Notes under the pieces: model-generated
Told to the model about the DNA's origin: nothing
The model's input: the letters and a program-made list of their open reading frames with translations, nothing else
The model's database searches: none
Program-made: the position numbers and the translations under genes
Shown: one piece after another, positions 37,822 through 44,627 of the stretch
Layout of the letters: each line of letters opens with the position of its first letter
How positions within the stretch are numbered: position 1 is the stretch's first letter
Assembly (NCBI RefSeq): GCF_007859865.1
Contig: NZ_SJPI01000001.1
Span: 62,001-126,000, forward strand
Direction: 5' to 3'
Origin: Rubripirellula amarantea
GTDB lineage: Bacteria; Planctomycetota; Planctomycetia; Pirellulales; Pirellulaceae
Length of the DNA stretch: 64,000 bases

Positions 37822-38820
37822 ATGAAGTCACTGGTCGCACTGTTGCTCGCGTTCACCACCACGCTGGTCGTGGCGCAAGATTCCAATCCCGCTCGCACGC
37901 CTGCGGACGGCCCCTTCGTGCCGGATGCGGTTCTGCCAGGCGGACAAGTACTTTCGCTCTATTCACCGGATTCACCGCTATTGAATCAAGAGCGAATCCA
38001 CGAAGCTGAAAAATACAACACCACTGGCAAGTATGACCGCCTTCTTAACACACTCAACATCCACAACCCGACCATCGAAGTCCACCTCGCAGAGAATCGC
38101 CAAAACAATGGCGCGGCCGTGATCGTCGCTCCGGGCGGCGGACACAAGATACTGTGGGTCGGTCCAGAAGGTTACGATCTGGTGCCATTCTTCGCCGAGC
38201 ATGGCGTGTCGACCATTGTGCTGCGAAATCGATTGCGGGTAGATGGTTACGAACCGACGACCGATGCGGTGAACGATACGTTTCAAGCAATCCGCATCGT
38301 GCGGGCTCACGCGGAAGAATGGCAACTGGATCCCGCAAAGATTGGCGTGGTCGGCTTTTCAGCAGGTGCCGAACTATCCGCACCCACAGCATTGTTCTTT
38401 GACGAGTTTCAAGAGGCACACGCAGACAACAGCGATCCGCTTGCGAATGTTTCTCCGCGACCTGATTTCGTCGGATTGGTGTACCCAGGTCCGACACCGT
38501 TCACGCGAAATCCTGAAACGAGCATTCCGAAGAATTGCCCTCCAAGCTTCATTGTTTGCGCTGGTTCAGATGACAAAGTTCACGCGATCTGGGCCGACGA
38601 GTACTTTTCACCCATGCTAAAAGCCGGCGTTCCCAACTTGGAAATGCACATCTACGCTCATGGTGGCCACGGCGGATCCATTCGTCCTCGAACCGGCGGC
38701 CCCTTCGCAACATGGCCCGACCGTTTTCTCGATTGGTTTACCGACCTTGGTTTCCTGGCGAAACCCGGCGAACCTACCAAAGCCGCCAAAGATGTCGCTG
38801 CCTACTCAGGCAAACGCTAA
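37822..38820 (+). CDS. Secreted alpha/beta hydrolase (esterase/xylan esterase-like)
   Basis: A 332-residue protein with a signal peptide (MKSLVALLLAFTTTLVVAQ). The ATG at 37822 is preferred over an in-frame ATG at 37789 because it begins the signal peptide. The catalytic Ser lies in GFSAGAE (G-x-S-x-G), an oxyanion stretch is APGGGHKI, and the catalytic His is in AHGGHGGSI near the C-terminus, the usual order for carbohydrate esterases and BD-FAE-like enzymes. FIVCAGSDDKVHA supplies the Asp. Probably deacetylates plant-type or algal polysaccharides; neighbours (GH-like, beta-helix) agree. Substrate is uncertain. Confidence 0.88.
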   Translation: MKSLVALLLAFTTTLVVAQDSNPARTPADGPFVPDAVLPGGQVLSLYSPDSPLLNQERIHEAEKYNTTGKYDRLLNTLNIHNPTIEVHLAENRQNNGAAVIVAPGGGHKILWVGPEGYDLVPFFAEHGVSTIVLRNRLRVDGYEPTTDAVNDTFQAIRIVRAHAEEWQLDPAKIGVVGFSAGAELSAPTALFFDEFQEAHADNSDPLANVSPRPDFVGLVYPGPTPFTRNPETSIPKNCPPSFIVCAGSDDKVHAIWADEYFSPMLKAGVPNLEMHIYAHGGHGGSIRPRTGGPFATWPDRFLDWFTDLGFLAKPGEPTKAAKDVAAYSGKR

Positions 38821-38845
38821 GTTCACTTCACCAACTGCTTCATTC

Positions 38846-41527
38846 ATGACGATCAAAACCTCTGCCTCTTACCGCTACGCGCTCGGCCTTCTGGCCGCAG
38901 TCGGGTTCTCACTGCTGCTCTGCAAGGTTGGCAACGTTGCCGCGGCCGATTTCTACGTATCCAACGCAGGAAGCGACGAAAACAACGGGAGCATAGACCA
39001 ACCGTTTGCGTCGCTAATTCATGCGCGTGACATGGCCAGAAAATCGTCCGCAACGGACACCATTTGGTTACGATCGGGAAGGTACTTTTTGCCGCAAGGG
39101 ATGGATCTTGGCGTTGAAGATTCGAATACAACGTGGCAAGCGTTCGAAAATGAAACCCCCGTTATTACAGGTGGCGTCAAGGTCGACGGTTGGAAACCAT
39201 GGCGTGATGGAATTTACCAAGCGGACGTGTCGTCATTGGGTAACCTCGCGATCAAACAACTACTTTACGACGGACAACGTCAATGGTTGGCTCGCTACCC
39301 CAACTTCGATTCCGAAAATCCTTATGGTGCAGGCTGGGCGTATGTCGATGGGGAACTCATCAACAAGTACAGCGACAGAGACGAAGACAGTAAAAGGTCG
39401 TTCGTTACCAAATCGGAAGACTGGCGATCGTGGGCGCATCCTGAAGATGTAAGTGTCTTCATTTTTGCCCGATACAATTGGTGGAACGACATCATGCCAG
39501 TTGCCACCGCCGAGCAGGAAACCAATCGAATCACAACAACGCAGGATGCGAGTTACGCGATTCGACCAGGCGATCGCTATTACTTTCAAGGCGCTTTGGA
39601 AGACCTAGACACCGAAGGAGAATGGCATTTTGACTCACGCGAAAAACGATTGTTCTTCAAACCGCCGCGCAATACTAAATCTTCGGTCTTGGTGCCAACG
39701 ACCCGCGTTATCGTTCGGATCAACAAAGACGCTCACGACATTGAACTTCGCGGTTTAACGCTCGAGTGTGCCGAAGGAAACGCAGTCGCAATGACGGAGG
39801 CTAAGCGCTGCCGAGTCGTCGCCAGCGTCGTTCGCTCCGTGGGTGATTACCACGGCAGCGGAATTTCGATCAAGAACGGAACCCAGTGCGAGGTCGTGGG
39901 CTGCGACATCTCGTTTACTGGCTCCCATGGTGTGCAAGTTTCCGGCGGCGACATCAAGACACTCACATCCCCCGGACATCGCGTTGACAATTGCTACATC
40001 CATCACGCCGGAGTCTTTCACAAGCAAGGTGTGGGAGTGATGCTAAGCGGCGTGGGCCATCAGGTGTCCCATTGTTTGATTCACGACATGCCACGGTTCG
40101 CCGTGATGTTCTGGGGAAACAAACACCAAATTGAAAAAAACCACATGCGTCACTTGGCATTGGAAACCGAAGATGTTGGTGCGACATACACCGGCGGCCG
40201 TAACTGGATCTCATCGCGAGGAACGACCTTAAAGCACAACCTCATACACGATGTTTTAGGCTACGGTTGGGATGGCAGCAAATGGAGTTCGCCGTACTTC
40301 GCCTTCGGTATCTACTTGGACGACAACACCGGCGGTGTCGACGTGATCGGGAACATCGTTGCTCGATGCGGTCGATCGGGTCTTCACGGGCACAGTGCCA
40401 GAGATAACCGAATCGAAGGAAACATCTTTGCGGACAATGCAGACCAGCAGTGGGAGTTCAACGGGTGGAAAGCCGGTGAAGGGCGGTGGGCAGAACACTA
40501 CGACGAGATGGTCGCGGGCTATGAATCGGTTGTTGGACTTCCCGCATGGAAGAACATGAGAGGAATGGACGTTCATCCCAAGGACATCGCCGACGAACAG
40601 AAGTGGGTCGTCAGCGGAAATGTCTTTCGCTCCAATATCATCGCCTGGAAGAACGAGGACGCCAAGGCAATGAAGATCACTGCGTTTTCACCGACGCGGA
40701 ATGAAGTCGACAAAAACCTTTACTGGCATGATGGCCGAGAGGTCACCACTGGGCATCACGCATTAGGCCGCCAGAAATCGAAGAACCTTATCGCCAACCC
40801 GACATTGAAGGGCAATCTTGGTGCATTACCCGATCAATGGAATTGGCAGATTCAGACGTCAACATCATCAGCCGAGTTAGTGGACGACAACGGCGATCAA
40901 GTATTGCGTATCGGAGCAGGCTACGATTCGAGTAAAGCTCGAGACAACTACCCCATCATTGCAAGCGATTCTTTGCCTCTTCGCTCGGGTGCGTCTTATC
41001 GCTTGCGAGCAACCATGCGGTCAGACACCGAAGCTTCCAAAGCCAACCTCTTGGTCCAGAGCTACGTTCCGGCCAAAGACGGAATGCCGGCTCACTTCTG
41101 GGGGCAATTTCCTTCGGAAGTCAATGTTTCTCGTCAGTGGGAAACGAAAGAGACGATCATTCGCATTCCCGCTGAAGGCGAGAAAGGATGGAACGAACGG
41201 ATGGGAGAAGCCTACCGCGTCCGCATCGACTGGGGACAATCCCAAGGTAACCTCTTTGTTCGCGACATCGAACTGGTTGAGATGGAACCCATGAGCGAGT
41301 GGGCTAGCTGGCAATCGCTGGGGTTTGATCAAAACAGCATCATTGCCGATCCCAAATTCGCGGATCGGACGAATGACGACTATCGCTTACCGAGCGATAG
41401 CCCCGCATTTCAACTTGGCTTTCAAGCAATCCCGGTGGACGAGATCGGACCATACGAAAGTCCTGACCGTGTCACTTGGCCAATTGAGGAAGCCGAAGGC
41501 GCTCGCGAGCACCCGCTGACGCCGTAG
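38846..41527 (+). CDS. Secreted right-handed beta-helix protein
   Basis: An 893-residue protein. The ATG at 38846 gives MTIKTSASYRYALGLLAAVGF, a signal peptide; an upstream in-frame start overlaps the esterase gene. After the signal comes ADFYVSNAGSDENNGSIDQPF, the typical entry of DUF1565/beta-helix proteins, then repeated glycine/asparagine-rich turns (HDIELRGLTLECAEGN, VEVVGCDISFTG, GVDVIGNIVARC) that build a parallel beta-helix (about 310-580). The C-terminal 200 residues form a carbohydrate-binding-like beta-sandwich. Such proteins bind or cleave polysaccharides (pectate-lyase-like or epimerase-like). It ends 7 nt before the convergent PhyH gene. Exact activity unknown. Confidence 0.85.
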   Translation: MTIKTSASYRYALGLLAAVGFSLLLCKVGNVAAADFYVSNAGSDENNGSIDQPFASLIHARDMARKSSATDTIWLRSGRYFLPQGMDLGVEDSNTTWQAFENETPVITGGVKVDGWKPWRDGIYQADVSSLGNLAIKQLLYDGQRQWLARYPNFDSENPYGAGWAYVDGELINKYSDRDEDSKRSFVTKSEDWRSWAHPEDVSVFIFARYNWWNDIMPVATAEQETNRITTTQDASYAIRPGDRYYFQGALEDLDTEGEWHFDSREKRLFFKPPRNTKSSVLVPTTRVIVRINKDAHDIELRGLTLECAEGNAVAMTEAKRCRVVASVVRSVGDYHGSGISIKNGTQCEVVGCDISFTGSHGVQVSGGDIKTLTSPGHRVDNCYIHHAGVFHKQGVGVMLSGVGHQVSHCLIHDMPRFAVMFWGNKHQIEKNHMRHLALETEDVGATYTGGRNWISSRGTTLKHNLIHDVLGYGWDGSKWSSPYFAFGIYLDDNTGGVDVIGNIVARCGRSGLHGHSARDNRIEGNIFADNADQQWEFNGWKAGEGRWAEHYDEMVAGYESVVGLPAWKNMRGMDVHPKDIADEQKWVVSGNVFRSNIIAWKNEDAKAMKITAFSPTRNEVDKNLYWHDGREVTTGHHALGRQKSKNLIANPTLKGNLGALPDQWNWQIQTSTSSAELVDDNGDQVLRIGAGYDSSKARDNYPIIASDSLPLRSGASYRLRATMRSDTEASKANLLVQSYVPAKDGMPAHFWGQFPSEVNVSRQWETKETIIRIPAEGEKGWNERMGEAYRVRIDWGQSQGNLFVRDIELVEMEPMSEWASWQSLGFDQNSIIADPKFADRTNDDYRLPSDSPAFQLGFQAIPVDEIGPYESPDRVTWPIEEAEGAREHPLTP

Positions 41528-41534
41528 CCGCAAA

Positions 41535-42371
<837 letters not shown>

Positions 42372-42384
42372 GATTACTTTCCGC

Positions 42385-43668
42385 CTAGGAATGATCAAAG
42401 CAAACTTTTCCGCCCACGATCGTCATGACAACGCGTGCGGTCAATTCGTGACCGTCCAGGGGCGTGCTCGGGCAGCGGGAACGGAAGTCGGTCCCTCGCA
42501 CTGTCCACTTTACATCAGGATCAATAATCGTCACGTCGGCGATGGTCCCGACAGACAGACATCCGCCTTGAACGCCCGCAATTCTTGCCGGCGCAGTCGA
42601 GAGTCGGGAAATGACCTTCGACCAATTCATATCGCTTACCGACAACATGAACGTTGCGACAGTCGAAAGAGTGGTTTCGAGGGAAGCCGAACCAAAGGGT
42701 GATACGTCCAAGTCGTTCATCTTTTTCTCGCGTGCACGCGGCATGTGCCCGCTTTGGATTGCGTCGATGGTACCATCGGCAACGGCAGCTTGAAGGGTTT
42801 CGATGTGACGACGTGATCGCAGCGGTGGATGCACCTTGAACCGCGCGTCAAAGGATCGAAGTTCGCTGTCGTCCAGGCATAAACTGTGCGGACAAACGGA
42901 CGCGGTGATCGGGATACCACGATCCTTCACGCGACGAATCAAGTCGACCGCGCCCATCGTACTGACAGGGCCGATGTGCAGCCTTCCGCCGGTCGCTTCC
43001 GCAATGCGGACGTCTCGAGCGACGGCTAAGTCTTCCGCTTCGGTAGGCAACCCCGTCAAACCTAGCACCAAAGCAACTTGACCATCGTGCATCACGCCGC
43101 CTTTGGACAACGACATCACGTTGGGACGATTGATGATCGGCAAGTTGAACATCCGCGCGTATTCTAGGGCGCGTTTGAGCAGTGCATCGTTGGTAATCGG
43201 TCGCGGAGCATCGGAGTAAGCAACGGCTCCGGCTTCATACAGAAGTCCCAACTCGGCCAATTGATCGCCATCGCGGTTCTTACTAAGACAGCCGATGACG
43301 TGCACTCGAACGCCACCGGCTTGCACTGCTTTTTGCCGAACGAATTCAACCGCTCCAGGCGAATCAATGCACGGCTGAGTGCTACTGCAACACAAAACCG
43401 AGGTGAACCCACCGGCCAAAGCTGCGGCAGACCCCGAGGCGATCGTTTCATCCTCTTCAAAACCCGGCTCGCGAAACTCAACACCCAAGTCGATAAAGCC
43501 AGGCGAAACGATCTTGCCCGTCGCGTCGATCGTTCGCACATCCGCGGAAACGTCCTTCGGGTCGATCGAGGCAACCATCCCGTCGACCAGCAAAATGCTT
43601 GCGACGCGATCAATCTGGTTGGCAGGGTCTATCAAGCGACCGCCGGTAATCAAAAGAGATTCACTCAT
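42385..43668 (-). CDS. Inactive-type dihydroorotase homologue (PyrC'-like)
   Basis: A 427-residue amidohydrolase-fold protein that aligns along its whole length with class I dihydroorotases. It lacks their active site: DLGVE at 60-64 replaces the metal-binding DLHVH; INRPN at 180-184 replaces the VHCED that carries a ligand His; HIGPVST at 231-237 replaces HIAHVST; and SGHMPR at 306-311 replaces TDHAPH with the catalytic Asp. CPHSL and KVHPPLR are kept in outline. This pattern strongly suggests no catalytic activity. In Pseudomonas and some other bacteria an inactive DHO (PyrC') is needed for the assembly of aspartate carbamoyltransferase. The overlap with pyrB (4 nt) supports the same role here. 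An active dihydroorotase must exist elsewhere. Confidence 0.9.
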
Positions 43669-44627
43669 GAGATTGGCGCGTTGGCGGTAAGGTAAAGTGC
43701 AGCCATTCGAACGGCGATTCCGTTAGTGACTTGTTCCAAGATGACGCTATGCGGACCATCGGCAACTTCCGGCGTGATCTCCACCCCGCGATTGATCGGC
43801 CCCGGAGCCATGATCAGGATGTCGCTTTTGGCTTTCGCCATCCGTTCAACATTCATCGCATACAAATTCGCGTACTCGTGAACACTCGGAAAGGGGCGTG
43901 CCGACTGACGCTCGAATTGGATCCGCAACAGGTTCAGTACATCACATCGCGGCAAAATTTCGTCCAAGTTGTGTGCCACTTCGAAACCGAGTTCTCCCCA
44001 GCGTTCCGACACCAAAGTTGGCGGACCACAAACAATCACGTGAGCGCCGAGCTTACTCAGCCCCCAGATGTTGGCACGTGCGGTTCGGCTGTGCGCGATG
44101 TCGCCCACCAATGCCACCGTTAGCCCCTCGATTCGACCTCGGTGCTGTCGAATGGTCAGGATGTCGAGCAACCCTTGCGTTGGATGGTCGTGAGGTCCGT
44201 CGCCTGCATTGAGTACGCAGCACTCCAGTTCGCGGGCAAGCAAGTGAGGTGTGCCGGGTGTGCAATGCCGAGTGACGACCCAGTCGACTCCCATCGCCTG
44301 AATGGTTTTCGCCGTGTCGACAAAGGTTTCGCCCTTCGCGGTGCTAGAACCGGCGCTACTAAATTCGACGGTATCGGCACCAAGACGTTTGGCAGCCAAC
44401 GAGAAGCTGTTTCGTGTCCGAGTGCTGTTCTCGAAAAACAGATTCGCACAGGTCTTGCCAGCCAGTAGCGAAATTTTGTTCCGACATCCGCCGGTAGCCT
44501 GCTTGAGTTGATCAGCGACGTCAAGCAACGTGCGAATTTCGTCGCCACTGAGGCTTTCGAGGTCAAGCAAATGACGCCGCGTCCAGGGATACGGGATGGT
44601 CAGGCTGATTTCGGCTGCTTCAGTCAT
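43665..44627 (-). CDS. pyrB: Aspartate carbamoyltransferase catalytic subunit
   Basis: A 320-residue enzyme of pyrimidine biosynthesis, transferring the carbamoyl group from carbamoyl phosphate to aspartate. The phosphate-binding [11 protein letters not shown] is near residue 69, the HPTQGLLD motif is near 146, and the GPxNRGVEI loop is near 281. No regulatory subunit pyrI is beside it. Instead, the inactive-type dihydroorotase overlaps it by 4 nt, as in Pseudomonas-type PyrB-PyrC' complexes. PyrB of that class often has an N-terminal extension; here the N-terminus is short (about 12 residues before the family start), a point against a full analogy. Confidence 0.95.

Follow-up and report, generated by a model that had tools for sequence, protein, structure and literature searches.

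Besides the dihydroorotase (DHO) homologue encoded next to pyrB, Pseudomonas encodes an active DHO elsewhere in its genome. According to one study, the pseudo-DHO of P. aeruginosa is inactive but needed for aspartate carbamoyltransferase (ATCase) activity, PyrB being an inactive monomer until the pseudo-DHO binds, and the N-terminal extension of this PyrB is dispensable (PMC7053772). In another, ATCase complexed with an active or inactive DHO is given as one of three prokaryotic types (PMC4581275). Here we describe a candidate locus of this kind in the planctomycete Rubripirellula amarantea. The window, that is the whole stretch of DNA analysed, comprises 64,000 nucleotides.

RESULTS

The pyrB–pyrC′ locus

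Three features, all in the window, define the locus:

43665..44627, minus strand: pyrB, aspartate carbamoyltransferase catalytic chain, 320 aa
42385..43668, minus strand: pyrC′, pseudo-dihydroorotase, 427 aa, class I DHO fold, without metal ligands
43665..43668, minus strand: ATGA overlap of the pyrB stop and the pyrC′ start

On the minus strand pyrB comes first and is followed by pyrC′, which opens with ATG; the four nucleotides shared by this start codon and the TGA of pyrB are the overlap that had been described from the sequence alone. Two curated ATCase models, NF002032 and TIGR00670, recognize PyrB above cut-off, and with the latter PyrB is the sole such match in the genome. Seventeen residues precede the NF002032 core, so the earlier impression that PyrB lacks a clear N-terminal extension was wrong. 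The product of pyrC′ obtains 319.2 bits on the TIGR00857 dihydroorotase model (cut-off 279.05) but falls short of the listed DHO equivalog models, which are finer. A homologue in R. obstinata is 81% identical to PyrC′ and has the identical 4-nt overlap with pyrB; by its named relatives the window belongs within Rubripirellula or beside it. In the order sample (117 genomes; PyrC match threshold E 1e-60), the PyrB and PyrC matches of family f1, presumably that of Rubripirellula, touch or lie at most 113 nt apart in all 14 genomes with PyrC. The locus has one of the traits of class A2, an active-site-less DHO homologue encoded with pyrB.

Near pyrC′, on the plus strand, an ORF of 955 aa (38660-41527) includes a right-handed beta-helix region. 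It is adjoined by a PhyH-type dioxygenase ORF (41535-42398, minus strand); if the first start codon is used for the latter, it shares 14 nt with the end of pyrC′.

Loss of the active site

The positions of the former active site, as located by alignment with Aquifex DHO, are as follows:

43471..43485, minus strand: former HxHxR, now G62 V63 E64 F65 R66 (Aquifex H61, H63, R65)
43207..43209, minus strand: A154 for Aquifex D153
43126..43128, minus strand: R181 for Aquifex H180
42967..42969, minus strand: P234 for Aquifex H232
42736..42750, minus strand: G307 H308 M309 P310 R311 for Aquifex D305 H A P H309

Residues H61, H63, D153, H180, H232 and D305, which we take to be the metal ligands of Aquifex DHO, correspond to G62, E64, A154, R181, P234 and G307 of PyrC′; HHDHHD has become GEARPG, and none of the six ligands is left. 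The presumed substrate-binding residues R65, N95 and H309 correspond to R66, S96 and R311, two of the three being lost. PyrC′ therefore departs from an active dihydroorotase in both sets of residues (GEARPG for HHDHHD, RSR for RNH). The sequence-only reading had every alignable metal ligand lost, which the alignment confirms for all six, and the four motif changes quoted there (GxE, INRPN, HIGPVST and SGHMPR) are exact. A sequencing error as the source of these changes is ruled out because the losses recur in relatives: each of the 20 named close relatives whose sequence includes these positions (L288-L305, L332 and L366; L362 spans the C-terminal part only) lacks all six ligands, and most have letters identical to those of PyrC′.

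Fold and selection

The best solved relative of PyrC′ is Aquifex DHO, matched across residues 5-424. A model of PyrC′ built on an alignment of 46 sequences is confident (pLDDT 95), and its best solved match in Foldseek is 3d6n, Aquifex DHO in the ATCase complex (TM 0.96, rmsd 1.3); with isolated Aquifex DHO (1xrf) the TM score is 0.80. As judged from this model the DHO fold is retained in PyrC′, in line with the initial view that the fold-defining parts were kept, and by this structural match as well as by the TIGR00857 cut-off the protein belongs to the class I dihydroorotases.

Purifying selection acts on pyrC′, with dN/dS values of 0.044-0.162 in seven pairs. Two close pairs gave 0.044 and 0.048 for pyrC′ against 0.015 and 0.020 for pyrB, and in the three pairs computable for both genes the pyrC′ value is two to three times that of pyrB. 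No internal stop was found among the PyrC matches listed (order, class and outside). With an intact ORF and dN/dS well below 1, the gene does not look like a decaying pseudogene. Across the order, identity to the window proteins is mostly 42-69% for PyrC and 66-85% for PyrB, a difference that would also be expected under relaxed selection and that comes from a comparison including genomes with intact PyrC.

A second dihydroorotase gene

A PF01979 search of the genome returned six matches, pyrC′ among them. The second DHO gene, for which a genome search had been proposed from the sequence alone, was found at L005 (L005:1399-2745, minus strand; C1:2678507-2679853), on the same contig and 2.57 Mb from pyrBC; by family model it is a putative DHO, with 695 bits on NF005751 dihydroorotase (cut-off 529). 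The motifs HCED, HVLHVS and TDHAPH are present, and Gln replaces the first His of HxH. This Gln is found in 15 of the 18 L005-type proteins read and likewise in 2gwn of Porphyromonas, the best solved relative of L005, which is titled putative. L005 is probably the dihydroorotase that does the chemistry, and the existence of 18 genomes in the order sample that have an L005-type DHO and lack a class A PyrC match suggests that this type serves as DHO. That pyrC′ could be the sole DHO gene of the genome is ruled out by L005. By family models L003 is a dihydropyrimidinase and L004 an allantoinase; L002 is an adenine deaminase, and L001 is nearest to an aminofutalosine deaminase-like model, below its cut-off.

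Co-occurrence of PyrC states and DHO genes

PyrC was found in 95 of the 117 order genomes, 63 times with all nine residues, once truncated but otherwise intact and 31 times degenerate. An L005-type DHO occurs in 44 genomes: 26 of the 31 with degenerate PyrC, none of the 64 with intact or truncated PyrC and 18 of the 22 without PyrC. All 44 thus have either a degenerate PyrC (26) or no PyrC/PyrB match of the window type (18). A longer ATCase is present in 17 of these 18, the exception being G307, and gave no match at E 1e-30 in the other 100 order genomes. The states found together in the order sample include intact PyrC without L005-type DHO (63, plus the truncated one), degenerate PyrC with L005-type DHO (26) and, where both class A genes are missing, another ATCase with L005-type DHO (17).

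The genomes with the longer ATCase, of about 400 aa (L137:1447-2682, minus strand; L368; L369), and an L005-type DHO (17/117) belong to f86 (14/15) and f91 (both) or are represented by G305, and have no class A PyrB/PyrC match; this ATCase scores 194-212 bits on TIGR00670, with a cut-off of 237. No match to it was found in the genome studied here, which rules out that it replaces PyrB there. Three further genomes (G226, G252 and G258) match neither class A PyrB/PyrC nor the long ATCase nor the L005-type DHO, their only transcarbamylase reaching 140-149 bits on TIGR00670.

In the class as a whole (order and class samples together), 199 PyrC genes were read. An L005-type DHO accompanies none of the 129 that are intact (124) or differ from this state by truncation only (5), and 49 of the 70 that are degenerate. 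In the remaining 21 degenerate genomes a TIGR00857 search returned a second match in 16, at 239-256 bits. DHO-like motifs are present in all ten of these that were read, and one, when scanned, gave only dihydroorotase models at E 1e-60, yet it stays below the TIGR00857 cut-off. Since the allantoinase L004 also obtains 243 bits on this model, such a score is by itself no proof that this protein is a DHO. The same search found no second DHO-like match in the other five of the 21 (G227, G253, G270, G281 and G257). The first four are only 62-83% complete; in G257 (L251) PyrC is disturbed solely around HxH and otherwise intact, a probable local sequence fault. Among 25 intact genomes searched in this way, 24 had a single match, and G229 had a second one of 192 bits that resembles the dihydropyrimidinase L003. 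For the association Fisher's test gave p 3.9e-48, a value uncorrected for kinship that includes the third DHO type, searched in just these 21 degenerate and 25 intact genomes.

Outside the class, PyrC is intact in 18 of 18 cases read, and those genomes are not among the L005-type DHO matches. Eleven further genomes outside the class (nine of f25, G118 and G180) match both PyrC and L005-type DHO at E 1e-60 and could be counter-examples; the exclusion is accordingly demonstrated for the class only.

Of the 95 order genomes with class A PyrB, 94 contain PyrC in one state or another, and the remaining genome, G233, has a completeness of 73%. A PyrB match is missing from G294, whose PyrC is intact. 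In all five genomes of f89 (G207, G223, G237, G246 and G256) pyrB and the degenerate pyrC are on separate contigs, as are pyrB and intact pyrC in some genomes, e.g. G230 and G280 of f2. As the degenerate gene persists unlinked in f89, linkage alone is insufficient to explain its retention.

Number of separate losses

PyrC is degenerate, with differing letters, throughout f1 (16/16 read), f3 (32/32), f101 (3/3), f89 (5/5), f94 (2/2), f88 (2/2, one partial) and f85 (1/1), as well as in g163 of f82 (6/6) and g270 of f100 (2/2). At least eight changes are counted on a FastTree tree of 229 rows, which has ten maximal all-degenerate clades, the doubtful G257 being one. Eight changes are also obtained on an IQ-TREE tree of 66 rows, where the well-supported branches force three. 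In AU tests on PyrC a single clade for all degenerate rows was rejected (p 3e-16). One clade was not rejected when the degenerate rows were restricted to those of the order (0.258), the order minus f82 (0.517), f3+f101+f100 (0.413), the f82+f1 core (0.281), f100+f101 (0.6) or f3+f101 (0.719), and the PyrB test, with 64 genomes only, was likewise non-rejecting (p 0.589). Of the independent pairs none speaks against the association; just three lie on well-supported branches, so that it is not significant by pairs. Planctomycete losses number at least two, besides the proteobacterial clade, and there were probably more.

Within g163 of f82 (L060, L057, L099, L106, L120 and L110) ligand loss is graded, from HHEHHD through HHAHHD and HYAHHD to HYAHHG, i.e. 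from one change up to three plus substrate residues. The PyrC proteins of f88 (L112 in G206, L127 in G222) keep their readable ligands, carry the changes N95D and H309L and co-occur with a second DHO; in G206 all six ligands are kept and only substrate residues are lost. This is possibly a young loss.

DISCUSSION

An inactive DHO homologue beside ATCase is a kind already known, as in Pseudomonas. PyrC′ is likely to be a DHO that has lost catalysis and is retained as a non-catalytic subunit of a class A2-like ATCase, the DHO step having moved to a separate gene. Starting from an ancestral PyrB–PyrC pair that carried both activities (class A1), the lineage would have gained an unlinked DHO, presumably before any loss in the linked PyrC, whose catalytic residues would then have disappeared with frame and fold retained. 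Dimers of PyrC′ would hold PyrB trimers together, probably making PyrB active or stable, and the dihydroorotase step would have been taken over by the L005 gene. By analogy with the Aquifex and Pseudomonas complexes, PyrB and PyrC′ may form a complex and PyrB may need its partner; the co-occurrence pattern fits such a structural role.

A more elaborate history would involve several A1-to-A2 conversions in the class, each preceded by the acquisition of an unlinked DHO, which would be of at least two kinds. The emptied site of the Rubripirellula lineage would then have become an effector pocket in which new residues (E64, P234, G307 and R311) were fixed beside the old R66, and PyrC′ would be a regulatory ATCase subunit. 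We consider this combination rather unlikely. The simpler proposal that the emptied pocket of PyrC′ binds an effector, such as a nucleotide or carbamoyl aspartate, and thereby regulates PyrB draws on the Rubripirellula/Rhodopirellula clade (24 rows), where five of the nine positions that were once catalytic do not vary and four of the five carry a new letter (E, P, G and R). However, 28.7% of all columns are invariant in this clade anyway, so that five of nine is not significant (p 0.083), nor do three of the six ligand positions stand out (p 0.23), and most former catalytic positions drift in f3; such a new function appears improbable.

Alternatively, PyrC′ may be a relic: once another DHO had taken over, selection would have relaxed, and pyrC′ would persist only because such genes disappear slowly or because its removal would disturb the pyrB operon. 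The graded ligand loss in g163 would be consistent with this, as would the two- to threefold higher dN/dS as compared with pyrB (three pairs computable for both) and the fact that PyrB and PyrC are both without match in f86, f91 and G305. Nevertheless, dN/dS is well below 1, no internal stop occurs among the PyrC matches listed, and some form of PyrC accompanies PyrB in 94 of 95 genomes. In addition, the unlinked retention in f89 (5/5) speaks against mere polarity. A relic is quite unlikely on this evidence. That PyrC′ is still a dihydroorotase working by a metal-free or altered mechanism is hardly credible, for although dihydroorotases are its best family matches (TIGR00857, 319 vs 279 bits), all six ligands have disappeared along with two of the three substrate residues, the genome has a second DHO gene and the lineages differ in their substitutions.

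The retention of PyrC′ as a non-catalytic ATCase subunit would suggest, for another phylum than that of Pseudomonas, that a DHO devoid of catalysis still has its value next to ATCase. The order sample of 117 genomes amounts to a natural experiment on what maintains the pair, channelling of the intermediate or the stability and activity of PyrB; where PyrC is dead, channelling into PyrC cannot be the reason. We did not find a planctomycete pseudo-DHO in the literature on planctomycetes or inactive DHO, as covered by titles and the beginnings of abstracts with subscription papers mostly outside; nor, within the same scope, did we find a published account of intact linked PyrC and a second DHO excluding each other in the class.

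Among known systems, the class A1 ATCase–DHO dodecamer of Aquifex aeolicus (3d6n, 4bjh) provides the best structural match of the PyrC′ model, and a PyrC that resembles it in having the full set of nine residues is what most genomes of the order sample contain (63 of the 95 with PyrC). In contrast to PyrC′, which is without any ligand, Aquifex DHO retains the ligands and is catalytically competent within the complex (PMC4581275). Fungal CAD-like proteins such as yeast Ura2 resemble the present case in that an inactive DHO homologue is kept with ATCase and the fold is preserved (PMC7053772); the pseudo-DHO of Ura2 is a domain of a fused multifunctional protein, whereas PyrC′ is a separate protein.

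In gene organization the locus resembles the Pseudomonas class A2 ATCase, where a full-length, active-site-less DHO homologue with the DHO fold also lies beside pyrB. The present locus differs in belonging to another phylum, and whereas class A2 ATCase is a dodecamer of six PyrB and six pseudo-DHO chains, a complex and the dependence of ATCase activity on PyrC′ are here predicted features. The former ligand positions differ too. Of 31 proteobacterial pseudo-DHOs, 27 have R at 63 and 25 have A at 153, where PyrC′ has E64 and A154; Q or R stands at 180 in 22 and at 232 in 24, and D305 is kept in 26, as compared with GEARPG here. On the FastTree tree 14 proteobacterial pseudo-DHO rows form a clade of their own (well-supported, 100), and the degenerate rows from planctomycetes are placed among intact PyrC of that phylum. 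Descent from the proteobacterial class A2 through one loss event does not agree with this tree. The best reading of the sequences is that PyrC′ would have evolved separately from the proteobacterial structural subunit.
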